Of a DNA stretch of 35,406 nt, positions 1,276-26,632 are shown in pieces (position 1 is the first letter of the stretch; each line of letters starts with the position of its first letter). The notes beneath the pieces were generated by a model. It was not told the origin of the DNA. It saw only the letters and a list, made by a program, of their open reading frames with translations, and searched no databases. Source of the DNA: a bacterium (GTDB lineage Bacteria > Elusimicrobiota > Elusimicrobia > Elusimicrobiales > UBA9959); assembly GCA_021811405.1 (NCBI GenBank), contig JAJZOZ010000009.1:1-35406 (forward strand), in the 5' to 3' direction. The position numbers and the translations under genes are program-made.

Positions 1276-1371
1276 CTTGCCGCGCGCTTGCAGGGCCGGG
1301 ATAAAATAGATAAAGTCTAGTTGCCGGAGGAACGGGCCGGGGACCGCGCTCCCCCGCCGTGCCGCCGCCGT

Positions 1372-2883
1372 ATGACCCGAACCACTACCGCGCGTACCGC
1401 CAGGGCCGCCCGCCTGCTGGCTGTGGGCAGGACCGCCCGCCTTCTTTCCGAGAACGGCTTCGACCTCTGCGACCTGTACTACCGCATGTCCAGCAAGAAA
1501 GGCGCGGAGCGCTTCTCCGCGGACAGGGCCGCCGGCCTCTGGGAGGAGTTCCTGCGCTCCCGCCGCCGCCCGGACGGCGCCCTGACCAACGTCTACGTCA
1601 ACGTCCCCTTCTGCAGGACCAGGTGCAGCTTCTGCGGCCTTTATACCCGTCCCGGCGCGGGACAGCGGGAGATGCGGAGCTACGCCGGCGCCCTGATAAA
1701 GGAGATAGAGCATTTCGGGCGCGCGTTCCGCGGCGCGGAAGCGGACCACCTGTACCTGGGCGGCACCCCCAGCAGGCTCGACGACGCGGCTTTCGGCGAC
1801 CTCCTCGAGGCCGTCTTCTCCCGGTTCAGCTTCACTCCCGACGGCAACCGGATACTGGAATGCGCGCCCAGCAGCATGACCTCCGCGAAGCTGCGCGCGG
1901 CCGCGGGCTTCGGCTTCAACAAGATAAACATAGGCGTGCAAACGCTCGACGAGAAGGTGCTCAAGGCCGTAGACCGCCCCCAGGACCGCGACTCGGTGCT
2001 GCGCCTGATCGGGGAGGTGAACTCCCTCGGCCTGAAGTTCGGCTGCAACGCGGACCTGATAATGGGTCTTTACGGCGAGACGGCCGCGGGTTTCCTGGAC
2101 TCCTTCCGCGCCATAGCCAGGAGCTCCCCGCAGACCATCTCGGTCTACGACCTATACCTCATCCCCAGCTACGTGGACCGCTACTACGGCGGCGACCACG
2201 AAGCGGCCGCGGCCGCGCTGGAAAGCTTCCGCGCCGGAACGGCGGGGCCCATGAGGAAGATCGCGGCCGAAGCGGGCTATGTCCTGACCTGCAGGAACAA
2301 CTCCAGGGAATGGATCTTCAGCCGGCGCGAGGCCCTGAAGGATTTTTCGCTCTACACCGTGTATACCGGGGAATTCTCGCCGGCCCCGTCCTCCACGCTG
2401 GGGCTGGGGGCCGCCGCGCGGTCGCTGATGTACGGCCGCTACAGCTATCTCCAGGACGCGGAGGCCATGGTCGAATTCTCCCCCGGCGCGCCGATGTTCT
2501 CCGGCACCCCGGTCAGCATGGAAGGGGAGATGATAAAGTTCCTCTTCGTCTGCTTCAGGACCGGGGTCCCGGTCCCGCTGGACTATTTCAGGAAGCGCTT
2601 CGGGACGGACCTGCTGAAGAAGTTCAAGGGCCCGCTGGCGGAGCTGGCGCGCCTGAACTACGTGAAGATAGCGGACAAGAAGGTTTCCCTGACCAGGTCC
2701 GGCCCGGCCAGTCTGCTCTTCTGCGGCCTCTGCCTGATAGGGATGGAGAGGTTCGTGCGCGAGGCGCTGCCGTTCTTCCCGGAGAACATACGCGCCTCTT
2801 TCGCCGCCAGCGCGGCGGGGCGGCCCGCGAAGCTCTACCCCGCCGTCAACCACCGCAACAGCTGGCCCCGGACCGGCTCCTAG
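1372..2883 (+). CDS. HemN/HemW-like radical SAM protein (coproporphyrinogen dehydrogenase family)
   Basis: VYVNVPFCRTRCSFCGLYTRPG (CX3CX2C), HLYLGGTPSRL, KINIGVQTLDEKVLKAVDRPQ, NADLIMGLYGET. ORF opens at TTG 1321; ATG at 1372 preferred. Confidence 0.85.
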   Translation: MTRTTTARTARAARLLAVGRTARLLSENGFDLCDLYYRMSSKKGAERFSADRAAGLWEEFLRSRRRPDGALTNVYVNVPFCRTRCSFCGLYTRPGAGQREMRSYAGALIKEIEHFGRAFRGAEADHLYLGGTPSRLDDAAFGDLLEAVFSRFSFTPDGNRILECAPSSMTSAKLRAAAGFGFNKINIGVQTLDEKVLKAVDRPQDRDSVLRLIGEVNSLGLKFGCNADLIMGLYGETAAGFLDSFRAIARSSPQTISVYDLYLIPSYVDRYYGGDHEAAAAALESFRAGTAGPMRKIAAEAGYVLTCRNNSREWIFSRREALKDFSLYTVYTGEFSPAPSSTLGLGAAARSLMYGRYSYLQDAEAMVEFSPGAPMFSGTPVSMEGEMIKFLFVCFRTGVPVPLDYFRKRFGTDLLKKFKGPLAELARLNYVKIADKKVSLTRSGPASLLFCGLCLIGMERFVREALPFFPENIRASFAASAAGRPAKLYPAVNHRNSWPRTGS

Positions 2884-4241
2884 TCGAAGCAGAACATCTT
2901 CATTATCTTCTCCGAGAGCGGGGCGCAGGCCGCCGCGTCCCGCGAGGACGCCGCGCGGTAGCGCCAATCCTCGCCCCTGCCGGACCTGACCGCGCCGACG
3001 AAGTCGTAGACTTCGGGAACCAGGCAGGTCTCGGGGTTCATCAGCGGGTTCCAGCACCTCTTCGGGGACGCCGCCGTCAGCAGCTTGTAATACTCGCCGC
3101 AGAACGCGGCCCCGGACTTCGGCCTGACTATCCCGGCCCAGCCGGAACAGAAAGAGTCGTACTTCGCCCGGCCCGCCTTGAGCGCCGCGAAGGCGGAAAG
3201 GTACTGCAGCGCGGTCTCCTCGCAGCCGCGCCTCAGGTCCGGATGTATGGAGCTGAGCCCGGCGCAGCCCTCGGGGGACCCCTTCGAGAGCGACACGCAC
3301 GCGCCGTAGTCCGCCAGCGCGTCCCACAGGTGCTGCTCCGGCATATGCCTGGCGTCCCCGGAATAGTCCGAGATGACGGTGCCTACGTCCACTTTCCTGC
3401 CGGCGCACCTGTCGGCGCCTTCCGGCGGCCGGCCGCCGTCCCCGCCGGAATTGCGGTATTCGCGCAGGGCCGTCACGGCCTTGCCGCCCGGCATGTTCTT
3501 CAGCGCTGCGGCGGCGGCCTCGCGCACTACGGGGGAATCGTCCTTAAGGGCGACTATGGCGGCGTCCACGGCGGCCGGCTTTCCGATCATGGCGAACGCC
3601 TCCACCGCGTAGGTCCTGGCCAGCGGGTCCCTGTCCTTCATCATCTCCAGCGCCGCCCCGAAGGCCTTGTCCCGGTCTATCCGGACCAGGGCCTGCAGTG
3701 CCTTGGTGCGCACGTAGACCACGGGATCCGCCAGCAGGGCCGAGACCGGCTTGTAGGTAGAAGGCTCCGCTATCCTGCCCAGGGCCTGCACGGCCTTCTC
3801 CCGCACCTGGGCCTCCGGGCTGCGCAGGCTCTTCACCAGGAAATCCGCGGCCCGGGCGTCCCCGATGACCCCCAGCACCTTTATCTCCCACAGCATGGCG
3901 GCCGGCCCGCTGCGCTCCGCGGCGAGCAGCAGCGGGGGGACGGCGTCTCCGCCGACGGTCTCCAGCGCCCTCTCGGCCGCGCCCCGCAGCTCCGCGTCGT
4001 CGGAGCCGAGGAAGCCGATCAGCGCGCCGACCGTCCTTTCCCGCGGCCCCCTCAGCAGGGCCCTGGCGGCGGCCTGGCGCTTCCCGTCGTCGGGCGACTC
4101 CACCAGGCGGAGCAGCGCCCTCTCGCTTTCCGGATCGAGCGCGGCGGCGCGCACTTCGCGGGCGGGGGCCTCCGCGGCGGACGCCGGGGCACCGGCGGAA
4201 ACCGCGGCGGCCAACAGCAGGCAAAGCATGGCTATCCTCAT
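2880..4241 (-). CDS. Secreted HEAT-repeat protein with Cys-rich C-terminal domain
   Basis: Start at MRIAMLCLLLAAAVSAGAPASAAEAPA (signal peptide). Tandem HEAT-like repeats (e.g. DPVVYVRTKALQALVRI, SPEAQVREKAVQALGRIA). Cys-rich C-terminus with ...SSRDAAACAPLSEKIMKMFC. The first 99 aa of the supplied ORF lie antisense-like over the neighbour and are not credible. Confidence 0.8.
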   Translation of the reverse strand: MRIAMLCLLLAAAVSAGAPASAAEAPAREVRAAALDPESERALLRLVESPDDGKRQAAARALLRGPRERTVGALIGFLGSDDAELRGAAERALETVGGDAVPPLLLAAERSGPAAMLWEIKVLGVIGDARAADFLVKSLRSPEAQVREKAVQALGRIAEPSTYKPVSALLADPVVYVRTKALQALVRIDRDKAFGAALEMMKDRDPLARTYAVEAFAMIGKPAAVDAAIVALKDDSPVVREAAAAALKNMPGGKAVTALREYRNSGGDGGRPPEGADRCAGRKVDVGTVISDYSGDARHMPEQHLWDALADYGACVSLSKGSPEGCAGLSSIHPDLRRGCEETALQYLSAFAALKAGRAKYDSFCSGWAGIVRPKSGAAFCGEYYKLLTAASPKRCWNPLMNPETCLVPEVYDFVGAVRSGRGEDWRYRAASSRDAAACAPLSEKIMKMFCFD

Positions 4242-4267
4242 TTTTCCTCCCTGGAGACGCCGGGGCT

Positions 4268-5140
4268 TCAGGCCGGCGGCAGCTCCTCCTCTCCGAACTT
4301 TTCCACGTAGGCGGCGTACACCCCGTCGCAGCCGCCGCGCATCGCGCAGCGGCGGCAGGCCGGGATCCGCCTCTTCTCCGGATGCTTCTCCCTGTCCGCC
4401 TTCCGGTAGCGGCCCCGGCCGGACACGTACTGCCTGGCCTGCCGCTCGAACATTTCCACCTTGTCCGCCGCCTCCCGGAAGAAGCACGGGACCGGCGCGT
4501 TTATCAGCGTGGCGTCCGGGTCCCCGGCGCGCAGGCACTCCAGTATGGCCGGCGCCGCTTCCGAGACCCTGGGCGTATGCGGCATCTTCCCCGGCCTCTC
4601 ACCCACGTAGATGATGTTCCACTTCGTCATGCCCAGGCGCTTGAGCAGCTTCCCTATCTTCGGCAGCCGGGCCGCGTTCTCCCTGACCACGGTGGTATTG
4701 GCCGAGACGCAGGAGAAGCCGGCGGCACGCAGGTTGGCCACGCCTTTCAGAATGCGGGCGAACCCGCCCCTGGTCCCGGTCAGGGCGTCGTGCACTGAGG
4801 CCCTGTCGCCGTGCACGGAAAAGCGCACCTCGGTCACCCCGGCCCTTAGCAGCGCCTTCACGAACCTCCCGTCGGCGAACATCCAGCCGTTAGTGGTCAG
4901 CAGGCGCTGGCGGAAGCCCAGCCTTTTGGCCGCCTCGAATATGGCGAAGATATCCTTTCTCAGCGTGGATTCCCCTCCGAGCACGTCCACCGCCTCCGCG
5001 CCCGCCCGCCTGGCCGCGGCCAGCTCGCCCAGCACCGCGCGGTAGCTCTTGTCAGGGACCGCGCCGCGGTACTCCCTGTCCCAGCAGAAGGCGCAGGAAT
5101 TGTTGCAGGTATAACCGGTTATCAGCTTGAGCGATCTCAT
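4268..5140 (-). CDS. Radical SAM protein with C-terminal auxiliary Cys motif
   Basis: MRSLKLITGYTCNNSCAFCWD; VDVLGGESTLRKD; FSVHGDRASVHDALTGTRGGF; C-terminal CRRCAMRGGCDGVYAAYVEKFGEEEL. ATGA overlap with the 5137 stop. Confidence 0.9.
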   Translation of the reverse strand: MRSLKLITGYTCNNSCAFCWDREYRGAVPDKSYRAVLGELAAARRAGAEAVDVLGGESTLRKDIFAIFEAAKRLGFRQRLLTTNGWMFADGRFVKALLRAGVTEVRFSVHGDRASVHDALTGTRGGFARILKGVANLRAAGFSCVSANTTVVRENAARLPKIGKLLKRLGMTKWNIIYVGERPGKMPHTPRVSEAAPAILECLRAGDPDATLINAPVPCFFREAADKVEMFERQARQYVSGRGRYRKADREKHPEKRRIPACRRCAMRGGCDGVYAAYVEKFGEEELPPA

Positions 5141-6066
5141 GGCGCCCGCCCCCGCTTCCGCCGGGCCGCGGCCCTTTTGAAGCAGAAGTAGGCGTCCAGC
5201 GTCCTGCCCGCCCCTCCGGCGCCGTCGCCGGCGGCGAACAGCACCGGGGCCATCGTCATGCCGGAGCGCCGCGCGTAGGCGACCAGCCCGAGTATCCGCT
5301 CCAGGGCCGCCGGATGCCCGCCCGAGGCGTAGAGGCCGCAGATCTCCCTCATCGCAGGGGTGAGGTCCCCGATGCCGCCGGTCTCGTACACCTTGTAGGC
5401 CTTCTTCCGGCCGGAGCCGGCCGCGCGCATCTCGTAATAAAAACACTTTTTTTCCAGCTTCAGCCCCGCCATGGCCCTCTTCTGCCAGGGCGGCACGCGC
5501 AGCCCGCCGGGGGCTTCCCGCCTGAAATAGAACTTGAAGTCGCCGCCGCCGTCCGGGGTCAGGTCCAGGCATACCGCCGACAGCGCGGCCAGCTCTGCGC
5601 CGGCCGGAGCCGCCGACGGTCCGCAGGCCGCGGAGAGCAGCCGCTCCTTGGCGGCCCCGCCGTGAACCGGGTAAAGCTCCTCGTGGTAGACCTTAAGCCG
5701 GGGGGCGTCCTTGCCCGTCCCCCAGTCCAGGCCGAGCGTGGTCTGGTGTGAGCGCCCCAGGGACGCGCCGGCCCTCAGGAAGCGCCCGAGGGCGGCCAGG
5801 TCGTAGCGTCCGCCGAAAGAGGCCGCGTAGCGCATTATGACGGGGCCGAGGGCGCCCCGCTCGCCGAAATCGCTGACGCTGAAGCGGAAAGCCCCAGGGT
5901 CGGAGGAGGAGACGCAGACGTCCAGCTTCTGGTTGAGCGGCAGCCAGCTCCGCTTCACCCTGCGGGCGAAGAGGCCGGTGAGGCCGGCCAGCCCGGAGGG
6001 CGGCACCTGCGGGGCGCCTTCCCCCAGCAGCCTGAACAGGCCGGGCAGGAACCCCTCGCGCCGCAT
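5137..6066 (-). CDS. Uncharacterised protein; possible ABBA-type (DMATS/aromatic prenyltransferase-like) repeat fold
   Basis: Intact ORF inside the operon with overlapping neighbours. Internal beta-hairpin-like repeats TTLGLDWGTGKDAPRLKVYHE and SAVCLDLTPDGGGDFKFYFRRE. Fold suggestion is speculative. Confidence 0.75.
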   Translation of the reverse strand: MRREGFLPGLFRLLGEGAPQVPPSGLAGLTGLFARRVKRSWLPLNQKLDVCVSSSDPGAFRFSVSDFGERGALGPVIMRYAASFGGRYDLAALGRFLRAGASLGRSHQTTLGLDWGTGKDAPRLKVYHEELYPVHGGAAKERLLSAACGPSAAPAGAELAALSAVCLDLTPDGGGDFKFYFRREAPGGLRVPPWQKRAMAGLKLEKKCFYYEMRAAGSGRKKAYKVYETGGIGDLTPAMREICGLYASGGHPAALERILGLVAYARRSGMTMAPVLFAAGDGAGGAGRTLDAYFCFKRAAARRKRGRAP

Positions 6067-7088
6067 CAGCGCCCCTCTATGTCGCTGGTGAGCTTATTAT
6101 ATTTCTTCAGCAGCCGCTTCTTCGCCAGCTCGGCGCGCATCTTCCCGGCGAACTCCGTGAAGAGCAGGCCCGCCTTCACGTTGTTGCGCAGGTTGCCCAC
6201 GATGCCGTTCTCGCGGTAGATGATGGACATGGCCCGCGTGTTGGACAGCCGGCCCGGGTGCAGGTCGTCTATCTTCAGCTCGGGGTCCGAGATATGGCCC
6301 AGGATGTAGCGGTTGCGCACCGCGTCGTCCTTGACCAGGTAGGCCAGGCAGGCCGAGTAGATGTTGCCGTCGATGTTCACGGACAGCTCGGTGTTCATCG
6401 GCATCGGCGAGAGCCAGTTCTTGACGTTCAGCAGGGCCACGCCCCTGTCCTTCAGCGCGGCCACCGCCGCCGGGACCAGCTCCTTGAGCTTCTTCCTCAG
6501 CAGCTTCAGCTTGGCGTCCGTGAACTTCGGGCCGCAGGAGACCATGATCCAGACCTTCTTGAACCCCAGCTCCACCAGGGAGTTGAAGCTCTCTATCAGG
6601 CGCGGCGCGGTGTCCGGCGTGACCACCGTGTAGCAGTAGGCGTCCAGCCCGTTGCGGAAGATCATCGGCAGGTTCTTCACCACCAGCGGGTAGGTCTCGT
6701 CCTTGCAGCCCATCCGCGGCCTGTTCTTGTTGTGCGAGCGGCGGTCGCCGTCCAGGCTGACTATCAGCAGCACGCCGTGCTCCTTGAAATAGGCTATCTT
6801 CGCCTCGTCGAGCAGCGTCGCGTTCGTGGTCATGATGAACTTGACCGTCTTGCCTAGCGAGGCCGCCTTCCGCTCGCCGTACTCTATCGTCCTGCGGATC
6901 AGGTCGAACGGCAGCAGCAGCGGCTCGCCGCCGAAGAACTCCAGCTTCAGCTCCTTGTCCTGCGAGCCGCAGAGCAGGTCCACCGCCTTGAAGAGGTAGT
7001 CCTCGGGTATATACTTGTTCTCGAAATGGACCTTGCAGTACGTGCAGCGCAGGTTGCAGGCCCAGGTGGTGACGACTAGAAGGTACAT
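6066..7088 (-). CDS. Radical SAM protein (anSME/SPASM-like)
   Basis: VVTTWACNLRCTYCKVHFENKYI; LEFFGGEPLLLPFDLI; MTTNATLLDE; SLDGDRRSHNKNRP; ELSVNIDGNIYSACLAY. Confidence 0.9.
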   Translation of the reverse strand: MYLLVVTTWACNLRCTYCKVHFENKYIPEDYLFKAVDLLCGSQDKELKLEFFGGEPLLLPFDLIRRTIEYGERKAASLGKTVKFIMTTNATLLDEAKIAYFKEHGVLLIVSLDGDRRSHNKNRPRMGCKDETYPLVVKNLPMIFRNGLDAYCYTVVTPDTAPRLIESFNSLVELGFKKVWIMVSCGPKFTDAKLKLLRKKLKELVPAAVAALKDRGVALLNVKNWLSPMPMNTELSVNIDGNIYSACLAYLVKDDAVRNRYILGHISDPELKIDDLHPGRLSNTRAMSIIYRENGIVGNLRNNVKAGLLFTEFAGKMRAELAKKRLLKKYNKLTSDIEGR

Positions 7089-7092
7089 GTTC

Positions 7093-8859
7093 TCATCCTA
7101 TTTCCCCGGCCCCGAATTTGCCCAGGTACTCGGCGAAAACCCCGGGGCAGCGCCGGCAGCCGCCGCAGGAGGCCGGCCTTACCCGGCCGAACTCGGCGGA
7201 GGAATTTATCTCATTATAATAAAATAAGCCGTCCCGGAAGACCAGCAGCCTGGCGGCCGGCGCCTGGCGGAAGCGCAAGGCGCCCGGGAAGACGCCGCGC
7301 AGCCTGTCCGCCACGCAGTCCGGGAAAAGGGTGAAAGCAGCGCGGCCGGAGGCGGGCCTCCGGCGGTAGGCCTCCAGCAGCCCGGAGTAGGAAGGCAGGG
7401 CGGCCAGGTAGCGCTTCTCCCCGCCCGGGCCCTGGTTGTCCGGGTAGTAATGCCAGACGGCGAAGTCCCAGTCCGGAGAGAAAGAGCGCACAAGCCCGCT
7501 CAGGGCCGGCAGCTCCCGTAAATTCTTCTTCAGAGCCACGGAATGCAGGCTGACATCCAGGTCGCCGCGCCTGGCCAGCCTCTCCATAAGCGAAGCGAGT
7601 TTCCGCCAGGAGCCGGGCCGGCCGGTGACCGCGTCGTGCGCCTTCGCCGACGCGCCGTATATCGGCAGCTCGAGCCCCGTGACGCCGAGCCCCTTCAGCC
7701 TGTCCAGCGCGGCGTCGCCGTCCAGCGCCAGGCCGGTGGTCCAGAGCTTTATCTTACCGTAGCCCGCGCCGCGGCAGCGCCGCAGCAGCTCCCCCAGCGC
7801 CGGGAAGCGGTCGGCCCTGTCCCTGCCCCAGATATTCAGGGTCCTCTCTTTGTTGAGCACGGAGAGGAACCTGCCCAGCACCGGAGACCCGGGGTCGAAA
7901 TCCAGCTTCTCCCGCGCCAGCCGGTGATACTGCCTGCCGCGTATGACGCGCGAGTCGAAGGAGCCCGTAAAATCGCTGGGACCGTACTGCAGGTCTATCG
8001 CGGCCAGGAAATCCGCGCCCGCCGCTGGCCGCTCCCCGGCCAGCACGGCGTCCGGCATTACGAGGCGCCCGCCCCCCACGGCGTCGAAGTAAAGGTACCT
8101 GTTGCGCCGCAGCTCGTCTATGCGGCAGGCGGGCGGCAGGAAACCGAGGTCTCCGCCCAGTTCCTCTACCAGCACCCTGGTGGAAAGCCCGGCTATGCGG
8201 GAACGCACGGCCTTCACGGCCGCTATAAAGCCTTTCCGGTCCAGCAGCCCGCGCGGCGCGGCGCCGCCCGGATAGCCGGCCAGCGGCCTCGCCAGCGTGA
8301 TGAAGGAGAGGCCGAAGCCGTCGAGCAGGGCGAGAATGTCCCCGAGCGAGGCCGAGTTGGCACGCGTCACGGGCACGGAAGCGCCCACTTCCCTGATGCC
8401 GGCCGCCCGGGCCGCGCGCAGGCCGGCGAGGTTCTCCGCGAAGCCTTCGCGGCCGGTACCGCAGATGCGCGCGTAGTTCTTCCCGTCTGCGGCAGGAACC
8501 GAAACTACGGCGTAGCCGAGACCGGCGGAAGCCAGTCCCGCGGCCAGACCGGGACGCAGCAGGCCGCGGCCGTTGGTGGACAAGCCTATGGTGGAGTAAC
8601 CCAGGGCGCGCGCGGCCGCAGCGAAGCGCGGCAGCCCCGGATGCAGGGCAGGCTCTCCGCCGGTAAATTCTACGTGCTTAAGTCCCATGGCCCTGCCGTA
8701 TCTGAGACCAGCCAGCACCTTGCCGTCCGGAGCCAGCGAGCCGGACAGACCGCAGGCGCAATAGCCGCAGCGGTTGCCGCAGGCGTCGGAAACGGAGAGG
8801 GAAAGCCTGCTGAGGCTCTCCCCTGAAACTCCGCCTGTGGGCGCGGCCGCTTCAGCCAC
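7093..8859 (-). CDS. Tandem radical SAM protein: active-type N-terminal barrel plus degenerate second barrel
   Basis: First half: SVSDACGNRCGYCACG and EFTGGEPALHPGLPRF. Second half has barrel motifs (LNIWGRDRADRFPALGELLRRCRGAGYGKIKLWTTG, LPIYGASAKAHDAVTGRPGSW) but no CX3CX2C and no GGEP. Ends CGGCRRCPGVFAEYLGKFGAGEI. Confidence 0.85.
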   Translation of the reverse strand: MAEAAAPTGGVSGESLSRLSLSVSDACGNRCGYCACGLSGSLAPDGKVLAGLRYGRAMGLKHVEFTGGEPALHPGLPRFAAAARALGYSTIGLSTNGRGLLRPGLAAGLASAGLGYAVVSVPAADGKNYARICGTGREGFAENLAGLRAARAAGIREVGASVPVTRANSASLGDILALLDGFGLSFITLARPLAGYPGGAAPRGLLDRKGFIAAVKAVRSRIAGLSTRVLVEELGGDLGFLPPACRIDELRRNRYLYFDAVGGGRLVMPDAVLAGERPAAGADFLAAIDLQYGPSDFTGSFDSRVIRGRQYHRLAREKLDFDPGSPVLGRFLSVLNKERTLNIWGRDRADRFPALGELLRRCRGAGYGKIKLWTTGLALDGDAALDRLKGLGVTGLELPIYGASAKAHDAVTGRPGSWRKLASLMERLARRGDLDVSLHSVALKKNLRELPALSGLVRSFSPDWDFAVWHYYPDNQGPGGEKRYLAALPSYSGLLEAYRRRPASGRAAFTLFPDCVADRLRGVFPGALRFRQAPAARLLVFRDGLFYYNEINSSAEFGRVRPASCGGCRRCPGVFAEYLGKFGAGEIG

Positions 8860-9706
8860 GGCGCCTCCGGGCCATAAGGAATTTCACCATCCCCACCGCG
8901 TAAGCCTTTACGAACCCGGGGCAGGAGGCGGAATGCGGACAGGCGGAGCATACCCCGGCCGGCTTCACCCGCAGGCGCGGCTGGAAGTCCGCGCCGGACA
9001 CCTCTCCGGCCGGGCAGTGAAGGCCCAGCTCCTCCGCCACGCAGGGCGGCACGGCGCCGCCGGCCGGCAGCATGCACCTCAAGCCCAGCTTCCGGCGCAG
9101 GCCGGCTATGGCGGAAAGCGAGCGCAGGGCGGCGGCCGCGTCGGGGATCAGCCAGCGCCTGGCCCGGACGCGTTCGCAGTCCGGCTCCAGCAGCGAGAGC
9201 ACGATATCCTTCACGCCATGTTTCTTCCTCAGCTCCCGCACCAGGGCCGGCGCGGAGGACTGGTTGCCGGAATAGACAAGGAAATTGACGGAGGTCTTTA
9301 TTCCGGAGCGGCGCAGGTTCTTCAGCGCGGCGGCCTTTTTGGCGAAACCGCCCTTCACTCCGGCGAGAGCGTCGTATCTTTCAGGCTCCGATTCGAAGAA
9401 GCTGACCACCACTTCGTCCAAACCGGCCATTGCCAGCTCCCGCAGGTAATCGGCCGAGGCCAGCCTCAGCCCGTTCGTCAGCAGCGCCACGTACTTGCCG
9501 CCCTTCTTAAGCCGGCGCACGAGGCCGGGCAGGCCCGGATGCAGAGTGGGCTCCCCGCCGGTGATGTTGACACGCGCGTTCCCCGGGTCCGCGGCAAGCG
9601 CGGCGGCCCGCCCGGCGGCTCCGGCCGTCCGCTTCACGCCGCCGGCGTCGCAGAACAGGCAGTCCTGGTTGCAGCCGCAGGAAAGTACCAGGCGCGAGGT
9701 CTTCAT
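8852..9706 (-). CDS. Radical SAM protein
   Basis: MKTSRLVLSCGCNQDCLFCDAGG; VNITGGEPTLHPGLPGLV; LLTNG; C-terminal CSACPHSASCPGFVKAY. Start at 9706 overlaps the upstream stop at 9703. Confidence 0.9.
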   Translation of the reverse strand: MKTSRLVLSCGCNQDCLFCDAGGVKRTAGAAGRAAALAADPGNARVNITGGEPTLHPGLPGLVRRLKKGGKYVALLTNGLRLASADYLRELAMAGLDEVVVSFFESEPERYDALAGVKGGFAKKAAALKNLRRSGIKTSVNFLVYSGNQSSAPALVRELRKKHGVKDIVLSLLEPDCERVRARRWLIPDAAAALRSLSAIAGLRRKLGLRCMLPAGGAVPPCVAEELGLHCPAGEVSGADFQPRLRVKPAGVCSACPHSASCPGFVKAYAVGMVKFLMARRRRG

Positions 9707-11861: not shown

Positions 11862-11864
11862 AGT

Positions 11865-12794: not shown

Positions 12795-12796
12795 GG

Positions 12797-19089: not shown

Positions 19090-19799
19090 ATGTTGTACTT
19101 GACGTAGTTCGGCGCCCGGTCCTTGCGCACCCGGCTGTCCACGGCGCGCTGCTTGCGGGGCAGGGCCCCGTCGGGCCTGAGCGCGGCGTAGTCCACGTGG
19201 GTGTCCGTCTCGTTCTCCTTGAGGTCCCAGACCGCGCATTTCAGTCCCAGCGCCATCATGCCGGAGACGGTCTCCCGGATCCGGCCCTGGTTGGCCTTCA
19301 GGCGCAGCGTGTGCATCTCTATCTTCGTCCCGGGGAAGGACCTGATGTTCCCGATGGCCTTCAGCAGAGCGGCGTAGCTGCCCTTCTTCCTGGTCACGGC
19401 GTCGTGCGTCGCGGCGTCCGGCCCGTAGACCGGCAGCAGGAAGGCGTTGACCCCGGCCTTCACCAGGGTCTCCACCAGCCTGCGGCCGCGCAGCTTGACG
19501 CCGTTCGACATCAGCTCTATATAGGTGAACCCTTCCTTCACCCCCATCCGGACCACCGACTCCAGCAGCCAGGCCGGGGCCATCGTCGGCTCGTCGCCGC
19601 CGAGGCAGAGGCGCCTGACCCCGCGCCGGCGGAGCACCCGCATCAGCGCGCGGAAGCGGATCAGCACCTCGCGCCACCGCTCGTCGGTGAAGGCGAAGGC
19701 CGTCCTGTGCGGGTGCCTGTTGCGCTGGCAGAAGACGCAGTCGATGTCGCATCCGAAAGGGAACGCGAGCAGCAGCTTGTCCTCCTTCCTCGGGCTCAT
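19068..19799 (-). CDS. Short radical SAM protein lacking C-terminal Cys module
   Basis: LAFPFGCDIDCVFCQRNRHPH; LCLGGDEPTMAPAWLL; LLPVYGPDAATHDAVTRKKGSY; ends at 243 aa without CX2CX5C. Confidence 0.88.
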   Translation of the reverse strand: MSPRKEDKLLLAFPFGCDIDCVFCQRNRHPHRTAFAFTDERWREVLIRFRALMRVLRRRGVRRLCLGGDEPTMAPAWLLESVVRMGVKEGFTYIELMSNGVKLRGRRLVETLVKAGVNAFLLPVYGPDAATHDAVTRKKGSYAALLKAIGNIRSFPGTKIEMHTLRLKANQGRIRETVSGMMALGLKCAVWDLKENETDTHVDYAALRPDGALPRKQRAVDSRVRKDRAPNYVKYNICTERTY

Positions 19800-20782
19800 G
19801 CCGGCTTCGCCTCCCTCACCGGGCGGAAGAAGGCGGCGTGCCCGGGGAACGCCTCGAGGTACTTCCTGAATATGCCGCCGCAGGAACGCCGCAGCGGACA
19901 GGGGCGGCAGGTCTCCAGGTACACCCGCCGGCGCGTCGGGCGCAGCGAGACCGTCTCCTTCAGGCCGGCGCGCCCGCCGGGCAGCGCGGCCCGCTCCACG
20001 GTAAGCCGGGGGGAGTAATAGAGGTCGTTGGAAAGGTCGTAATGCCCGCCCAGCGCGCAGGCCGGCACGCCGAAGAAGCGCAGCGTCACGCCGAACAGCT
20101 CGGCCTGCTCCCGCAGCGCGCCTATGCGGGGGCCTATCGCGGTGAGGTCCGGCGCCAGCGCGGCGTAATCCGCGCAGGCCCCGCCTTCGGGGGCCGGGTT
20201 GGAGATCAGGTAATGCCTGACCAGTCCGGTGCCGGCGACGCGGCGCAGGATGTCCGAGACCCGCATGAAATTCTTCCTCATGGCGACGGTGTTAACCATC
20301 AGGAACGGCCGGCCTCGGCCCGCCTTGCCCAGGTTGTCGAGCGCGGCCATAACGTCGTCGAAGCTGCCTTTCCTGCCTGTCAACGCGTCGTGCAGCGCCG
20401 CGGTAGGGCCGTGGCAGGAGAGCATGGCCTCGTCCAGCAGCGGCGCGGCGCGCCGCGCGAAGGCCGGGTCCGCGAAAGCGGCCCCGTTGGTGGTGACGGC
20501 GGTCCTGTAGCCCAGGGCCCTGGCGGCGCCGATGGCGGCCGGAAGGGCGGCGCAGAGCGAAGGCTCGCCGCCGGTAAAGGTCACGTGGGAGAAGCCGGCC
20601 CGCCGCTTCTCCCTCAGGATGCCGGCTATCTCCGCGCCTGAAAGGTCCAGAGTCCGGAACCGCCGCAGCCTGTTGCGCTCGCTGCAGAACAGGCAGCTGT
20701 TCCCGCAGGTGTAGGAAACGTGTATCTCCAGCCGCTCCGGGGCCGCTCTCTTCGCGTCGGTCATCCGGACGTCCCCGCTCAT
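19796..20782 (-). CDS. Radical SAM protein with C-terminal auxiliary Cys motif
   Basis: IHVSYTCGNSCLFCSERN; VTFTGGEPSLCAALP; SCHGPTAALHDALTGRKGSF; CRPCPLRRSCGGIFRKYLEAF. ATGA overlap with the 20779 stop. Confidence 0.9.
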   Translation of the reverse strand: MSGDVRMTDAKRAAPERLEIHVSYTCGNSCLFCSERNRLRRFRTLDLSGAEIAGILREKRRAGFSHVTFTGGEPSLCAALPAAIGAARALGYRTAVTTNGAAFADPAFARRAAPLLDEAMLSCHGPTAALHDALTGRKGSFDDVMAALDNLGKAGRGRPFLMVNTVAMRKNFMRVSDILRRVAGTGLVRHYLISNPAPEGGACADYAALAPDLTAIGPRIGALREQAELFGVTLRFFGVPACALGGHYDLSNDLYYSPRLTVERAALPGGRAGLKETVSLRPTRRRVYLETCRPCPLRRSCGGIFRKYLEAFPGHAAFFRPVREAKPA

Positions 20783-21921
20783 GCGCGGCACCTCCCGGCG
20801 CGCACCGGCTTCAGCGCCGAAAAGCCCGCGGCCATCACGGTCTTTATCCGCGCGCCGCGGCAGGCGGCGGAGGCGCGGCACCTGCGGCAGGCCGAACCCT
20901 TCACGGTCAGCCTCTCGGCGATGAAGAACTCCGCCACCTTCATGATCCCGGCGCGGGGCGTTATCCTCTTCGCCCTCCGCCGGTCCTCCGGCAGGCAGGC
21001 CGGCGGAGGCACCGTCTTCAGAGAGCCCTCCGCCCGCAGCAGCTCCAGGTCCGAGCAGAACTGCGCCATCACGCAGGAGGCGCAGCGCGGCCCCCTGCAG
21101 TGCATCTCTTCGCCGGAGTACAGGAAGGCCTCGAGCGGCCGGCGCATGCCGCGCACCTCGTCCATCAGCTTGTCCGGGTGCTGGATGTAGCGCTCGTTGC
21201 CCTCCAGGACCGCGGCGGGGAACCTGTTGGTCCAGACGTGCGCGCCGACGGATTCGGAGAAGCGGAACACCTTTTCCAGCATCCCCTTCTTGGAAGCCGG
21301 GGAATAGGAGAGCCGCTTCCAGTTCTCCCAGGCGCGGCCGAAAGGTATCAGGTTCAGCAGGTCGTACTCGTCCACGCCCAGCCGGTGCAGCATGGCGACT
21401 ATGTCGTAGACGGAATCGGCGTTCAGCCTGTTCACCACGATGTCGCTGCTGACGATCAGGCCGGGCACCTTCTTGGCGTTGGCGACGGCCAGCATGGTCT
21501 GCGCGAACGCGCCCGGGACCCCGACCAGCGCGTCGTGCTGCGCGGCGGTGGCCCCGTGCACGGAAAAAGTGATCTCGGTCAGGCCGGACTTCACGGCGCG
21601 CCTCAGGAACGCCCCGTAGCAGAACATGCGCCCGTTGCTGATGGCCTGCACATGCGTGTAGCCCAGCTTCCGGGCCTTCGCCACTATGGCCGTGAACCCG
21701 GGATGTATAGTGGGCTCGCCGCCGCTCAGCACCACCCGGCGGCAGCCCTCGGCCCGCCCGCGCTTCAGGTCGGCCTCTATCTCGGCGAGCGGCAGGTGCT
21801 CGCCGCAGATGGAGTCCGCGTCGAGACAGAAGAGGCAGCGGTTGTTGCAGGCCCTGGTGAGCCTGACCCATTTGCGCTTTTCCGGGGCCGCAGCGGTCTT
21901 TTCCGTCATCGTGTCATCCAA
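20779..21921 (-). CDS. Radical SAM protein with extended Cys-rich C-terminus
   Basis: VRLTRACNNRCLFCLDADSICG; VVLSGGEPTIHPGFTAIV; SVHGATAAQHDALVGVPGAF; CRGPRCASCVMAQFCSD plus ACRRCRASAACRG. Confidence 0.9.
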   Translation of the reverse strand: MDDTMTEKTAAAPEKRKWVRLTRACNNRCLFCLDADSICGEHLPLAEIEADLKRGRAEGCRRVVLSGGEPTIHPGFTAIVAKARKLGYTHVQAISNGRMFCYGAFLRRAVKSGLTEITFSVHGATAAQHDALVGVPGAFAQTMLAVANAKKVPGLIVSSDIVVNRLNADSVYDIVAMLHRLGVDEYDLLNLIPFGRAWENWKRLSYSPASKKGMLEKVFRFSESVGAHVWTNRFPAAVLEGNERYIQHPDKLMDEVRGMRRPLEAFLYSGEEMHCRGPRCASCVMAQFCSDLELLRAEGSLKTVPPPACLPEDRRRAKRITPRAGIMKVAEFFIAERLTVKGSACRRCRASAACRGARIKTVMAAGFSALKPVRAGRCRA

Positions 21922-22861
21922 GAAGTATCTTCTCCGCCAGCCGGTCGGCGGCCAGCCCGCCCGCCACCGCCCCGGCCCCGAACAGCGCCTTCGCCATCCC
22001 GGCGTAATCCGGCGGGACCCGCGGCGGCCCGTCCAGGGCCTCCAGCCCGCCCGCCAGCATATGCGCCGCCTGCCCCGCGTTCTTCGCGGCCAGGACGAGG
22101 TTGGAGTGATAGCATCTCCCGTCCGTGTCCACGGTTATCCCCGGGTTGAACAGCGGCACCGGGCCCGAGCGCGAGGCGTTCTCTATGAGGACCGCCCCGG
22201 AATCCGCGAGCTCCCTGATGCGCCGCAGCGCGCCCGAGAGCCTGGAGAGGCCGGCCGGCGTCCAGGCGCGGTAGTAGGCCGGCAGCACGTTGACGCGCGG
22301 CGGCCTGCCGCCGGAGACGTCCAGCACCCGCCGCAGCACCTCCAGCGCCGAGCACGGGTCGCGCTCCGGCAGCAGCAGGTTCCAGATCAGGTTGGGCAGC
22401 CCGGAGAACCTTGCGCTGACGCTCACCGAGGTGTTCACGTTCACCTGCACCCCGGGCCTGGCGGAAAAAAAACGCACCTTGGCCGCGTCCAGCAGCAGGC
22501 CGTTGGTGCCCACTTCCACGCGGCCGCCGAAGCCGGCGGCCTCCAGCTGAGCTATCCCCGCTCGCACGAGCGCGAAGCGCAGCAGCGGCTCTCCGCCGAA
22601 AAACTTCACCGCGCCGCCCTCGGGGGCGGCGGCGCAGTACCGCTTTATAGCGCTTTTCAGGACCGCCCCGGGCATATCCGCCCGGCCGGTCGCGACGGGG
22701 CATTCGGGGCAGGCCGACTGGCAGCGCCGGGTAACTATAAGGGTCAGCTGCGGGGCCGGCGCGCCCCCGCGGCGGGCCGGCAGGGCCGGTTTACTGGCCT
22801 TTCTCCGCCTGTTTGCCCTTGGGCTGCTTGCTCTGCTGCTGTACGCCCATCCTCTTGTCAT
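21914..22861 (-). CDS. Divergent radical SAM protein
   Basis: LTLIVTRRCQSACPECPVATG; VKFFGGEPLLRFALV; VGTNGLLLD; FNPGITVDTDGRCYHSNLVLA. The only ATG overlaps the upstream gene by 71 bp, so the start is uncertain. Confidence 0.8.
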   Translation of the reverse strand: MTRGWAYSSRASSPRANRRRKASKPALPARRGGAPAPQLTLIVTRRCQSACPECPVATGRADMPGAVLKSAIKRYCAAAPEGGAVKFFGGEPLLRFALVRAGIAQLEAAGFGGRVEVGTNGLLLDAAKVRFFSARPGVQVNVNTSVSVSARFSGLPNLIWNLLLPERDPCSALEVLRRVLDVSGGRPPRVNVLPAYYRAWTPAGLSRLSGALRRIRELADSGAVLIENASRSGPVPLFNPGITVDTDGRCYHSNLVLAAKNAGQAAHMLAGGLEALDGPPRVPPDYAGMAKALFGAGAVAGGLAADRLAEKILLG

Positions 22862-23840
22862 CTTCAGCCTTCTGCTTTACCATGTCGGCCATTATCTTGT
22901 GCCGGAACGAGCTGGTGCAGTAGCCGGTGGCGAGTTTCTTGGCCAGAGGAGCGCAGACCGACGGGTCCCTGGACTCCAGCACGCGCGGCAGCCACTTGTC
23001 GTCGGGGATGGCGTCCCCTATCACCAGCGCGGCGCTGAGCTGGCATTCCTTCTTCCTGGGGCCGCTCAGCCTGCTGCAGGCCGCCCGCCCGCGTATGAAC
23101 AGGAAGTTGGATTCGCAGCCCGGGGGCAGGCCGAGCGACCTGCACTCCGGGGTCCGCTTCCGGGCTATGGAGTCGGAGATGACGCGGCAGAAGTCGGGGC
23201 TGGGCCGGCCGTCCCTGAACGCGTTGTTTATGAACTTCTCGCATTTGCCGTCGTTGATGGTCTTGCGCATCGCGGAGTACAGGAACTCGTAGTAGTCCGC
23301 GGCGTAGCAGACCCGGTTCAGGTTGTCCTGGACGCAGTCGAGCTGCCCGCCGCTTATCAGCCGGCAGACCCCGTAATCCAGGAACAGGTTGAGGATGGTA
23401 TCGTCCTCAGGCATGTTGCTGTTGGTGTTGAAGAAGAACTTGAAGTTCTTGTCGAAATGCCGGATGATCGCGTCCGGGTTGTCCGAGAACGCCTTCACGC
23501 AGTCGGCGTCGGCCGCGTTCACGGGGACGTCCTCCGGCTGGGAATAATACCCGCCGTAAGAGCCCTCGTACTGGCCGCCCTGCGGGATGTTGCTCCGGGT
23601 CTCCGTGGAGACCGGGCTGCTCAGCGCCGCGGCGTCCGGCGGCAGCGCCTGGCCGACCTCCTGCTGCGCCTCCGACGGCGAAGGGGGCGGGACCGGCTGC
23701 TCCAGCCCCATGTTGGCGGCCTTCTTGTCCGTCACCATCTTCAGGGCCAGCAGCACGCCCATCAGCGCCACCAGCAGCGCCACCAGCAGCTTCGGGGACA
23801 TCGCCCCGCGCCTGTATCCCTTCCTCATGGCGCTCACCAT
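22791..23840 (-). CDS. Membrane-anchored Cys-rich protein
   Basis: N-terminal TM (MSPKLLVALLVALMGVLLALKMV), Pro-rich stalk, Cys-rich domain ending LESRDPSVCAPLAKKLATGYC, similar to the C-terminus of 2880..4241. Confidence 0.78.
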   Translation of the reverse strand: MVSAMRKGYRRGAMSPKLLVALLVALMGVLLALKMVTDKKAANMGLEQPVPPPSPSEAQQEVGQALPPDAAALSSPVSTETRSNIPQGGQYEGSYGGYYSQPEDVPVNAADADCVKAFSDNPDAIIRHFDKNFKFFFNTNSNMPEDDTILNLFLDYGVCRLISGGQLDCVQDNLNRVCYAADYYEFLYSAMRKTINDGKCEKFINNAFRDGRPSPDFCRVISDSIARKRTPECRSLGLPPGCESNFLFIRGRAACSRLSGPRKKECQLSAALVIGDAIPDDKWLPRVLESRDPSVCAPLAKKLATGYCTSSFRHKIMADMVKQKAEDDKRMGVQQQSKQPKGKQAEKGQ

Positions 23841-24130
23841 TGCCCGTGGCTGCCGTGCGAGCCGTGGCTGCCGTGCGAGCCGTGGCTGCTGTGCGAGCCG
23901 TGCGAGCCGTGCGAGGCGTGGCTCACGTGGCCCGACGCGTTGCCGCTGCTGTGGAAGTAATTGGAATGGGTCGCCGCGTCGGCGTGCTCGGTCACGGCCC
24001 CGACGGCCGTGGCCACCAGGCCCAGGACGACCGCGGCCTTGACCACGTCGCTCTTGACTATCTTTCCTTCCTCGCTGGAGAGGAAGCGAGAAAGGTCCCC
24101 CGACAGCTTCTTTTTCTGTTTTCCAGCCAT
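23834..24130 (-). CDS. His-Xaa-Ser repeat peptide, HxsA-like putative RiPP precursor
   Basis: 98 aa: leader-like SGDLSRFLSSEEGKIVKSDVVKAAVVLGL and C-terminal HVSHASHGSHGSHSSHGSHGSHGSHGSHGQW. Adjacent to the HxsB-like maturase. Confidence 0.8.
   Translation of the reverse strand: MAGKQKKKLSGDLSRFLSSEEGKIVKSDVVKAAVVLGLVATAVGAVTEHADAATHSNYFHSSGNASGHVSHASHGSHGSHSSHGSHGSHGSHGSHGQW
23846..23930 (-). repeat. Tandem repeat encoding (His-Gly-Ser)n; 18-bp higher-order unit GTGGCTGCCGTGCGAGCC (+ strand), degrading to 9-bp units
   Basis: Perfect copies 23846-23863 and 23864-23881; third copy 23882-23899 with one mismatch; then GTGCGAGCC-type 9-mers. Confidence 0.85.
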
Positions 24131-24149
24131 AATTTGCCCCGTGTTCCCT

Positions 24150-25622
24150 CTAGACGTGTATCCCGGCCACTCCGGCGCTGCTGCCGGCCCAGGACTCGAA
24201 CAGCTTCTTGACTTTCGGCTCGCGCAGGCGCGCGAACAGGTAATCCATGACCCCGGTGTAGATCTCGCACCGGAAGTTGGGATGGTGCATGTACAGGTCG
24301 TTGTGCTCGGAATAGTTGAAGACCGGGCAGACGCCGCAGTAAGGCTTGTAGACGCAGGAGGAGCAGAGCGTCTGTATGTCCGTCACCGAGGCGGTGACCA
24401 CGCATTTCACGGTCGGGCTGGCCGCCAGGTCCGCGTAGGCCTCCTTCTTCAGGTCGCCCATGCAGAAGGCGTCGGTGCCTTCGGCGGCGAGCATGCGGCC
24501 CTCGTCGCAGGTGAACACCCTGCCGTCGTAGTCGTACGCGATCTGGCCTATCCCGGCCCCGCACGGCGACCGCAGGTCCATGAAGTTCGGGTCGGTATCG
24601 GTCAGGATCTTGCGCAGGAATATCCTGGCGGTGTGCTCGACCAGCGAGGCCTTCTTCTTCAGGTTCAGGTCTATGACGTAGTCCAGCGCCTTCGTGTAGA
24701 ACTCTATGTACTCCCGGGCGGTGTAGCCTATCCGGCCCCAGGCCTTCTTGGCCGCGCCGAACGGGTTGAGGAAGCGCAGGAAGATGGAGCGGGCGCCGAT
24801 GCGGACGTATTCGTCCACTATGTCCTTGTGCCGCCCGAGGGACTGCTTCGTCACGGTCAGCAGAGCGTCGGGCCCGTTCTTGCTCCGGGCCGTGCGCTTC
24901 TTTATGATCTTCCACCACTTCAGCACCTCGGCGTGGCTGCCGCCGCCGGTGGCTACGCGGTTCTTGTTGTGCAGGTCGGCCGGACCGTCCAGCGAGGTGC
25001 AGATGGCCACGTTGTGCTTGAGCAGGAAATCCAGGCGCTCCGCCGTCATGGCGGAAAGGTTGGTCACCAGGCTCAGGCCCACCTTCTTGTCGGTGGTCTT
25101 AAGGCGCTCGGCGGCCTCCTTCACCATGAACTCCAGCACCGGCCAGTTGAGCAGCGGCTCGCCGCCCTGGAACTCTATGGTGACCGACGGCGCCGGCGAC
25201 GCGAAGACGGAATCCAGCACCTTCAGCGCGGTCTCCTTCGTCATGTCCAGCCCGCGGCCGCCCTTCTTAGAAGAGGCGTGGCAGTAGACGCAGTCGTGGT
25301 TGCAGCGGCGGGTCAGCACCGCTATGTGCAGGGCCGGGCCGGAGAAGAGGAAGTGGTTCTTCTCGTGCCACCTGTCGGCCAGGCCGGCGAAGTCCATGTA
25401 GTCCCGCACGAAGCCCTTGCGGGAGAGGTCCTTGTACTCCGCGGACTTCTTGTCCAGCGTGCCGGCGGCCAGCTTCGAGAAGACCTTCTCCGTTAGAAAA
25501 GCGTACTCGCCTATGTCGTTGGTGACCAGGTATTCGTCCCCGGACCGCTTGAAGCGGAGGAAGCCGGTCCTCTGGGGGTTGAACTCAATTTCCTTTTTTT
25601 GTTTTCTTGGCATTTTTGGCAT
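24150..25622 (-). CDS. hxsB: His-Xaa-Ser system radical SAM maturase HxsB-like
   Basis: GFLRFKRSGDEYLVTNDIGEYAFLTEKVFSKL N-terminal domain; IAVLTRRCNHDCVYCHASSKKGG; VTIEFQGGEPLLNWPVLEF; TSLDGPADLHNKNR; SPASM Cys run CDEGR...CSSCVYKPYCGVCP. Confidence 0.85.
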   Translation of the reverse strand: MPKMPRKQKKEIEFNPQRTGFLRFKRSGDEYLVTNDIGEYAFLTEKVFSKLAAGTLDKKSAEYKDLSRKGFVRDYMDFAGLADRWHEKNHFLFSGPALHIAVLTRRCNHDCVYCHASSKKGGRGLDMTKETALKVLDSVFASPAPSVTIEFQGGEPLLNWPVLEFMVKEAAERLKTTDKKVGLSLVTNLSAMTAERLDFLLKHNVAICTSLDGPADLHNKNRVATGGGSHAEVLKWWKIIKKRTARSKNGPDALLTVTKQSLGRHKDIVDEYVRIGARSIFLRFLNPFGAAKKAWGRIGYTAREYIEFYTKALDYVIDLNLKKKASLVEHTARIFLRKILTDTDPNFMDLRSPCGAGIGQIAYDYDGRVFTCDEGRMLAAEGTDAFCMGDLKKEAYADLAASPTVKCVVTASVTDIQTLCSSCVYKPYCGVCPVFNYSEHNDLYMHHPNFRCEIYTGVMDYLFARLREPKVKKLFESWAGSSAGVAGIHV

Positions 25623-26049
25623 TTTTGCTCTTTTCCCACGGCACGGCTATGCCCAGAGAATCGTCCTTGTAGTCGCCGCTCTCCGCTTCCTTCAGCAGCT
25701 TCTCGATCTCCTTCTCCAGCTCCGCGTCCAGCACCGGCGCCGCGGCGGCCGGCTCGGCGGTCTTCGGCTGGGCCGAGAGCAGCGCCCTGACCACTATCCT
25801 TTCGCGCAGGACCTGGTTGACGGAGGAGACCTTCAGGCGGAAGGCGTGGTGCAGCAGCTCGTTGCGGAACTCGCCCTCCAGGTCGCGGCCCTCCGGGAAC
25901 TTGCCGTTCTTCGGCTCCAGCTCCACGGAGAGCGAACCGCCCTTGTCCTTGCCCAGCTTCACGTAGGCGTCCTTGGAGAACGTGTACGCCGCGGCGTAGA
26001 CGCTCTCAAGGGGATATACCGAAAGATCGATCTTAACCTGTTTTTTCAT
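25585..26049 (-). CDS. hxsD: His-Xaa-Ser system protein HxsD-like
   Basis: IDLSVYPLESVYAAAYTFSKDAYVKLGKDKGGSLSVELEPK...EFRNELLHHAFRLKVSSVNQVLRERIV matches the HxsD pattern; overlaps hxsB. Confidence 0.75.
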   Translation of the reverse strand: MKKQVKIDLSVYPLESVYAAAYTFSKDAYVKLGKDKGGSLSVELEPKNGKFPEGRDLEGEFRNELLHHAFRLKVSSVNQVLRERIVVRALLSAQPKTAEPAAAAPVLDAELEKEIEKLLKEAESGDYKDDSLGIAVPWEKSKNAKNAKKTKKGN

Positions 26050-26068
26050 GCTGTTCCTCGGACGTAGT

Positions 26069-26632
26069 TTATTTCAGCCTGCAGCAAAGCATTTCGCCGG
26101 AGCTCGGGATGGACCCCGGGGGGCCCATGGACTGCATCTGGCTGCCCACCCTGGCCGCCACGACGGCGGTCTTGGTGCCGATGCAGGTGGAGACGGTGCC
26201 GTAGGAGTAGGTCTGCCAGGAGCAGTCGAGCAGGCCGGGGGGGTCGGCCCAACTGGAAAGGCCGCTCCCGTCCGAGGTAAGCACCCTGCCGTTGGACTGG
26301 GAGCCGTTCTGCAGCTCGAAGCTGCCGACCACGTGGAGCTTGGCCGCCGGGGCGCCGGTGCCTACTCCGACGTTGCCGCCGTCCCGGGCCAGTATGGTCT
26401 GGCTGGTGGTGAGTATGCTGACGTAGCCGCCGTAGGGCGCCGGGTAATACGTGGTGAGCGTCAGCGTTTCCGAGCCTATGAAGCCCGGGTGCCAGCAGAC
26501 GAACAGCCAGGCCAGCAGGCCCACGGCCGTCTTCCGGTGCGAAAGACCCAACCGGCTCAACCAGCCCGTCAGGCCGGGCCGATCAAGCCAGTCCGATGAG
26601 AACTTGATAACGATCTCGTTATTGTTCCTCAT
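26069..26632 (-). CDS. Anchored surface protein with tail-fibre-like motif
   Basis: TM segment KTAVGLLAWLFVCWHPGF followed by SETLTLTTYYPAPYGGY and NVGVGTGAPAAKLHVVG; four Cys in the C-terminal third. First gene after the putative promoter. Confidence 0.65.
   Translation of the reverse strand: MRNNNEIVIKFSSDWLDRPGLTGWLSRLGLSHRKTAVGLLAWLFVCWHPGFIGSETLTLTTYYPAPYGGYVSILTTSQTILARDGGNVGVGTGAPAAKLHVVGSFELQNGSQSNGRVLTSDGSGLSSWADPPGLLDCSWQTYSYGTVSTCIGTKTAVVAARVGSQMQSMGPPGSIPSSGEMLCCRLK

Follow-up and report, generated by a model that had tools for sequence, protein, structure and literature searches.

What would a bacterium make with a gene run in which nitrogenase-like proteins stand among radical S-adenosylmethionine (SAM) enzymes and the parts of an Hxs peptide system? 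The question is posed by a 35,406-nucleotide contig of an Elusimicrobiota bacterium (JAJZOZ010000009.1, assembly GCA_021811405.1; the window hereafter), whose genome amounts to 2.83 Mb in 234 contigs and is 88% complete with 6.5% contamination. An earlier reading of the window's sequence (the original prediction) had placed all of these genes in one pathway. To our knowledge, the substrates of known nitrogenase-like enzymes are N2, tetrapyrroles or small sulfur compounds. We report here that a nitrogenase-like (NFL) family is tied to Hxs, and we favor, with a probability of about 0.6, the reading that the locus encodes an Hxs peptide-modification pathway with two acquired, dedicated nitrogenase-like reductases that are optional to the pathway.

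The Hxs core and two nitrogenase-like sets

Genes g01 to g26 of the window were defined from open reading frames (ORFs), the GC content at third codon positions of each frame (GC3), start codons and junctions. Related loci (islands) were mapped on 22 stretches from 21 genomes, chosen mostly for having NFL and HxsB genes on one contig. The curated NCBIfam cut-offs were passed by HxsA4, HxsB and HxsD, which lie together with two other proteins as follows.

26069-26632, minus strand: g23, exported 'TTYYPAPYG' protein of 187 amino acids heading the Hxs run; its family occurs on 12 of the 22 stretches mapped, in many cases directly ahead of HxsD
25585-26049, minus strand: g22, HxsD (TIGR03976 50.9 bits, cut-off 50)
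24150-25622, minus strand: g21, HxsB radical SAM/SPASM maturase (TIGR03978 490 bits, cut-off 370)
23834-24130, minus strand: g20, HxsA4 precursor of 98 amino acids (NF038313 62.5 bits, cut-off 55), whose leader has the motif SEEG and whose C-terminal part has His-Xaa-Ser repeats
22791-23840, minus strand: g19, 349 amino acids with an N-terminal hydrophobic segment; 35% identical to its counterpart in the relative G156, and similar proteins adjoin HxsA4 in other islands

No HxsC above cut-off was found in the window (best scores 104.9 against 267.9 for TIGR03977 and 129.3 against 500 for NF038332), although ten paralogous HxsC-like proteins are encoded there. We therefore call the locus an Hxs variant rather than an orthodox HxsABCD set. 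Among 40 distinct HxsA4 leaders, the motif S-E-E-G/A precedes a hydrophobic stretch with G in 37 and A in two; in the fortieth (G223) the pattern had been placed wrongly, and the leader reads SEEA. A prepilin-like cut at this site is offered as a suggestion only, and an AxA-like site lies beyond it in the same leaders. Many genomes of the window's phylum have two to four HxsB copies and so several Hxs systems per cell.

The nitrogenase-like genes form two complete sets, A (g24, g26 and g25) and B (g13 and g12), as judged from sequence and a modelled fold.

28882-30612, minus strand: g26, strongly diverged NFL alpha protein of 576 amino acids, set A (alpha profile 84.6 bits, E 2.8e-27; beta profile -4.4)
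27614-28873, minus strand: g25, NFL beta protein of 419 amino acids, set A (PF00148 103.6 bits; beta profile 308.6 bits), with the invariant beta cysteine
26770-27624, minus strand: g24, stand-alone NifH-like ATPase/Fe protein of 284 amino acids, set A (nifH 217 bits, cut-off 394), with a P-loop and both cluster cysteine motifs
15852-18071, minus strand: g13, NifH-alpha fusion of 739 amino acids, set B (a single frame matching PF00142 at 221.6 bits and PF00148 at 67.8 bits); 64% identical in G156
14582-15871, minus strand: g12, NFL beta protein of 429 amino acids, set B (PF00148 125.2 bits); 64% identical in G156

Membership in the nitrogenase-like superfamily is given by PF00148 scores above the Pfam gathering score for g12, g13 and g25 and by the PF00142 NifH domains of g13 and g24. 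For g26, which alone matched no Pfam or NCBIfam family, it is given by the alpha profile (built from 27 sequences, with g13 included and g26 left out) and by fold: the top 50 Protein Data Bank (PDB) matches of its AlphaFold2 model (mean confidence, pLDDT, 65) were all chains of nitrogenase, methylthio-alkane reductase (MAR), dark-operative protochlorophyllide reductase (DPOR) or NifEN, with MAR chain 9fmg_B the best. The possibility that g26 is an unrelated protein was rejected by the profile score and these fold matches.

In agreement with the original prediction, which had recognized no such genes, no product of the window exceeds an equivalog cut-off for nifB/E/N/V, bch or cfb. Scores also fell short for NifHDK (nifH 217 against 394, nifK 28 against 427), for DPOR and chlorophyllide reductase (BchL 172 against 345, BchN 44.7 against 324) and for CfbCD (CfbC 223.7 against 402, and no cfb genes recognized in the window). 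The alpha profile lies nearest to MAR and NifE chains in the PDB (best 9d9u_A, a MAR), and the beta profile lies nearest to Anf/NifK chains. In a NifH tree, g24 appears to group with the stand-alone NifH of G193, G213, G200 and a spirochaete, g13 appears to group with G156 in a part that holds mostly fused forms, and non-elusimicrobial branches are nested among the others. The DxLGDxVCGGF cysteine motif is present in all 31 mapped NifH ORFs and the other cysteine pattern was matched in 23 of them; g13 and g24 have both.

Conserved throughout the alignments are two cysteines of alpha (C157 and C242, in all 26 rows; both are retained in g26) and one of beta (C39, in all 18 rows, as are D35 and D52). 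Together with an acidic residue, they would suit a single interface [4Fe-4S] cluster of the DPOR kind and are probably too few for a P-cluster, which has six cysteine ligands (general background, as are the ligands of the DPOR cluster). The likeness to BchLNB extends from the NifH-like ATPase and two component-1 subunits to the small number of cysteine ligands fitting one [4Fe-4S] cluster, whereas the scores lie far below the Bch cut-offs, the ligands would be two alpha and one beta cysteine, and the window has no chlorophyll genes.

Co-occurrence and linkage of NFL and Hxs

Across 340 genomes of the window's own phylum, the NFL beta protein was found in 46, HxsB in 92 and both in 45. The single exception, G224, has the gene order of G223, and its 23.4-kb contig ends before the site where G223 has HxsA4-HxsB-HxsD. 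The same dependence was seen in a second phylum (that of G351, probably Myxococcota, as it includes genomes with Deltaproteobacteria, Myxococcota and Bradymonadales titles; 188 genomes), with beta in 28 genomes, HxsB in 66 and both in 27; HxsB was present in 16 of 16 genomes with beta matches above 300 bits. Fisher tests, which ignore phylogeny, gave 5e-29 and 2e-13 for the two phyla. A scan of contigs found HxsB in all 15 and HxsA4 in 14 of the 15 non-elusimicrobial NFL genomes (among them one with a Spirochaetes and one with a Bdellovibrio title), or 16 of 16 and 15 of 16 with the one elusimicrobial genome of the scan included. The converse fails: beta was absent from 47 of 92 HxsB genomes in the window's phylum and from 39 of 66 in the second. 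With so many HxsB genomes lacking NFL, the reductases would be an optional elaboration of the pathway.

Beta and HxsB were on the same contig in at least 21 of the 46 genomes. In at least 18 they are separated by no more than 20 kb, against a chance expectation of about 1.5; in three of the 15 non-elusimicrobial genomes they lie 81 bp to 3.8 kb apart. The mapped stretches show recurrent groups of g23, HxsD, HxsB, HxsA4, radical SAM genes, NFL genes and g08 (a membrane protein described below). A compact example is a one-strand form of about 12 kb in G200 (L073), in the order HxsD-HxsB-HxsA4-rSAM-NifH-alpha-beta-rSAM-rSAM-g08-rSAM-rSAM (rSAM, radical SAM), and such forms open the pathway to heterologous expression. 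A chance neighborhood is rejected by the occurrence and linkage counts. The original prediction had held that it would fall if the radical SAM, nitrogenase-like and Hxs genes were never linked in related genomes; they are linked in other genomes, and its proposal of one pathway is strongly supported. Because the dependence holds in two phyla and is accompanied by adjacency, a functional tie between NFL and Hxs is very likely.

A further divergent alpha-beta NFL lineage was observed in tandem at L068 (G186:C9, 446-6233), scoring 132-158 bits to the beta profile. The weak beta matches in the second phylum may belong to this lineage; they co-occur with HxsB in 11 of 12 genomes.

This system joins two described kinds of locus. 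Haft and Basu reportedly described the Hxs system as HxsABCD, with two radical SAM proteins and no nitrogenase-like enzyme. The window shares with it HxsA4, HxsB and HxsD above cut-off and radical SAM proteins like HxsC and HxsC4, and differs by its 14 radical SAM proteins, its two NFL sets and the lack of an HxsC above cut-off. Meheust et al., in a 2020 article in ISME J, are said to have found loci of nitrogenase paralogs and radical SAM genes in Elusimicrobia, with Myxococcales also named, and to have predicted a tetrapyrrole substrate. Those loci reportedly share the phylum, the nitrogenase paralogs and the extensive radical SAM suite with the window, and an Hxs partner is not known to be part of that account; what differs here is the Hxs dependence, the linkage and hosts without HemC. 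Within the collection of papers covered, our literature search found none that ties a nitrogenase-like enzyme to Hxs or to ribosomally synthesized and post-translationally modified peptides. The Hxs system is named in a portion of PMC9062424.

Proposed pathway and alternative substrates

The association with Hxs narrows the substrate, which the original prediction had left as cofactor-like or peptide-derived, towards the peptide. In the pathway that we propose, HxsB and the HxsC4-like radical SAM proteins would modify HxsA4 at its His-Xaa-Ser repeats. Low-potential electrons, driven by ATP, would then pass from each NifH through the [4Fe-4S] cluster at the alpha-beta interface, much as in DPOR, and the NFL would reduce a ring or an unsaturated group that has arisen on the peptide or on a fragment of it; with two NFL sets, two such reductions would be expected. 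The membrane protein g08 would serve to process the product or to anchor it, and the conserved SEE-G/A motif ahead of the hydrophobic stretch may be where this happens.

10650-11861, minus strand: g08, membrane protein of 403 amino acids of a putative A24 (prepilin-peptidase-like) family, with invariant D25, N33 and WPAGDAK

Two aspartates are invariant in the g08 family, and seven of 11 members (g08 itself not among them) match PF01478, which is why we suggest an A24 peptidase. A structure search with an AlphaFold2 model of g08 (pLDDT 68) gave no significant match and left the A24 fold unconfirmed, and the g08 profile matched nothing in the PDB. In a census of 80 chosen genomes, the family was found in 30 of 31 genomes with NFL (counting G224, the only one without a found HxsB), in 32 of 35 with HxsB and no NFL (five of these 32 matches are weak, E 1e-18 to 1e-30, and may be other A24 proteins) and in none of 14 without HxsB; for genomes with HxsB proper, the count is 61 of 65. 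This pattern ties g08 to the elusimicrobial Hxs core rather than to NFL alone.

Direct action of the NFL on the peptide goes a step beyond the functional tie, and we place its chances near even but on the lower side. In its fullest form, the two NFLs would reduce the peptide as remodelled by the radical SAM enzymes, for example at an imidazole or at an unsaturated crosslink made by radical chemistry, to give a class of peptide products not known from any other enzyme family; this we put forward tentatively, as somewhat more apt to be wrong than right. If it is true, peptides would be added, as a new class, to the substrates of the most strongly reducing ATP-driven reductase fold, the orphan Hxs systems would gain a first chemical handle, and the line of prediction would be redirected from tetrapyrroles to peptides. 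In several bacterial groups, genomes with this NFL family almost always have the peptide system as well, an indication that nitrogenase chemistry was recruited to ribosomal-peptide modification.

Several points weigh against the proposed pathway. The chemistry, substrate and product of the pathway are all putative. The HxsA4 of genomes with and without NFL did not differ by eye over 30 loci, so no peptide feature marks HxsA4 as an NFL substrate. Nearly all genomes of the window's genus have HxsB, one reason why the Fisher values are inflated by phylogenetic inertia, and the exception in the second phylum, G507, has a weak beta match (155.7 bits) and no HxsB. The alpha protein of set A, g26, is 14-25% identical to its relatives and could be decaying. 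Lastly, a HemN-like radical SAM gene recurs in six islands and could point to a tetrapyrrole.

This last observation leads to an alternative in which the NFLs reduce a tetrapyrrole to a novel cofactor, with Hxs as a separate neighbor or as user of the cofactor. BchLNB and CfbCD, the closest analogues in function, have tetrapyrrole substrates, and the top NCBIfam scores were to CfbC for the NifH domain of g13, to nifH for g24 and to BchN for g12; the HemN/STM4012-like gene also flanks the window's own run. We looked for HemC in 38 of the 46 elusimicrobial genomes with NFL and found it in 22, the window's genome included, and it was absent from the other 16. Those without it include three that are 100% complete (G119, G120 and G121) and six at 95-99% (G152, 99%; G156, 98%; G136 and G148, 97%; G124, 96%; G147, 95%). 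This test weakens the case for a tetrapyrrole, including the earlier proposal that the original prediction had mentioned, with import of a tetrapyrrole a possible way around it. In addition, no product of the window exceeds a heme, siroheme, Cfb or Bch cut-off, and the dependence on HxsB is left unexplained. We consider this alternative unlikely.

The resemblance of the alpha proteins to NifE chains, which are among the best matches of their profile, raises another alternative: the NFL pair could be a NifEN-like scaffold on which a metal cluster is assembled by radical SAM and NFL proteins before its transfer to the histidine-rich repeat of HxsA4. The iron-molybdenum cofactor (FeMo-co) is made by a radical SAM protein with NifEN and NifH, and poly-His-Xaa-Ser can bind metals. 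The three invariant cysteines are, however, fewer than a P-cluster and an L-cluster would need, and the window, to which the search for NifB and FeMo-co genes was confined, yielded no protein recognizable as NifB-like, as NifV-like or as serving metal insertion. A scaffold is quite unlikely on this evidence.

The MAR matches, 9d9u_A for alpha and 9fmg_B for g26, would instead fit reduction of a small molecule, for example at a C-S bond as in methylthio-alkane or isethionate reductase, in an island shared with Hxs merely as a mobile region rich in radical SAM genes. The nesting of non-elusimicrobial branches in the NifH tree is a hint of gene transfer, and the part of PMC11423573 that treats isethionate reductase IsrBHDK places this NFL beside a radical SAM gene. 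As described in that part, the Isr locus has one radical SAM gene and sulfur-assimilation genes, in contrast to the radical SAM array and Hxs genes found here. Moreover, repeated adjacency and a dependence on HxsB in 45 of 46 and 27 of 28 genomes of two phyla would be unexpected of a bystander. We regard this alternative as very unlikely.

Layout of the gene run

The 26 genes g01 to g26 all lie on the minus strand between 2880 and 30612. The 23 genes, strand and span (26632-2880) of the originally predicted run correspond to g01-g23, but the run does not end at 26632 and its description as single needs amendment, as g24-g26 (26770-30612) continue upstream of g23 on the same strand across a 137-bp gap. 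The 22 junctions of g01-g23 are 14 overlaps and eight gaps, with every gap at 26 bp or less as had been claimed; they are not mostly of the ATGA type, since 4-bp overlaps occur at merely five. The 71-bp overlap noted at 21914/22791 is present as called and is probably an artefact of the start call, because the similarity of g18 to its G156 counterpart starts only at residue 32. Sixteen consecutive genes (g07-g22) are kept in order in G156 at 35-81% identity, so the arrangement is not due to chance.

The 137-bp gap before g23 holds a candidate promoter.

26714-26742, minus strand: promoter-like TTGAAA-17-TATACT, matching consensus at 10 of 12 positions, with TG before the second hexamer (a consensus match only)

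Sites of such quality number three in the stretch against 1.4 expected. Set A (g24-g26) may form its own transcription unit. A search for internal terminators found terminator-like sites at chance level (nine against 9.2 expected and 12 against 10.2 expected), and no tRNA genes were found in the window.

The radical SAM array and other genes of the run

Exactly 14 products carry CX3CX2C, the number originally predicted: HxsB and 13 others. Most of these further radical SAM proteins have HxsC4 or HxsC as their best NCBIfam match, below cut-off. An all-against-all comparison showed ten HxsC-like proteins to be paralogues, and nine of these have a C-terminal CX2CX5C. The remaining genes of the run are as follows.

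21914-22861, minus strand: g18, degenerate PapB/HxsB-like radical SAM protein with CQSACPEC and uncertain start; from residue 32 onward it shows 59% identity to its G156 counterpart
20779-21909, minus strand: g17, HxsC-like radical SAM protein with CNNRCLFC and auxiliary CX2CX5C, paralogous to the other HxsC-like proteins
19796-20764, minus strand: g16, HxsC4-like radical SAM protein (NF038332 80.2 bits, below the cut-off of 500)
19068-19799, minus strand: g15, short HxsC4-like radical SAM protein (NF038332 56.3 bits)
18064-19089, minus strand: g14, HxsC4-like radical SAM protein (NF038332 56.6 bits)
13701-14585, minus strand: g11, HxsC4-like radical SAM protein (NF038332 129.3 bits)
12797-13711, minus strand: g10, HxsC-like radical SAM protein (TIGR03977 99.1 bits, cut-off 267.9)
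11865-12794, minus strand: g09, HxsC4-like radical SAM protein (NF038332 84.3 bits); 81% identical in G156
9703-10653, minus strand: g07, HxsC4-like radical SAM protein (NF038332 121.8 bits); 81% identical in G156
8852-9706, minus strand: g06, MoaA/HxsC-like radical SAM protein with CNQDCLFC (MoaA and HxsC models below cut-off)
7093-8859, minus strand: g05, 588 amino acids in two radical SAM-like halves (PF04055 in two stretches; CX3CX2C in the first half only)
6066-7088, minus strand: g04, PapB-like radical SAM protein (NF047865 141.8 bits, cut-off 340)
5137-6066, minus strand: g03, 309 amino acids with no NCBIfam or Pfam match; frame GC3 0.91
4268-5140, minus strand: g02, HxsC4-like radical SAM protein (NF038332 91.3 bits)
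2880-4241, minus strand: g01, exported HEAT-repeat protein (PF13646 123 bits)

Flanking genes and recurrent neighbors

The HemN/STM4012-like radical SAM gene (1321-2883, plus strand) faces the cluster and may belong to the pathway, as it has relatives in six of the genomes mapped (G000, G119, G152, G193, G213 and G223). Beyond it lies a YgeY-family M20 hydrolase above cut-off (3-1256, minus strand), which is found near islands in seven mapped genomes. On the other side of the run are an exported protein (31214-31777, minus strand), a PhoH2-like helicase below cut-off (31972-33276, minus strand) and BamA above cut-off (33513-35405, plus strand). Among recurrent neighbors elsewhere, U32-like proteins were seen in seven mapped genomes and SufS-like proteins in six, and an exported protein of 724 amino acids (G143:C27:60942-63113 and relatives), which may resemble an SGNH hydrolase, lies beside islands in 11.

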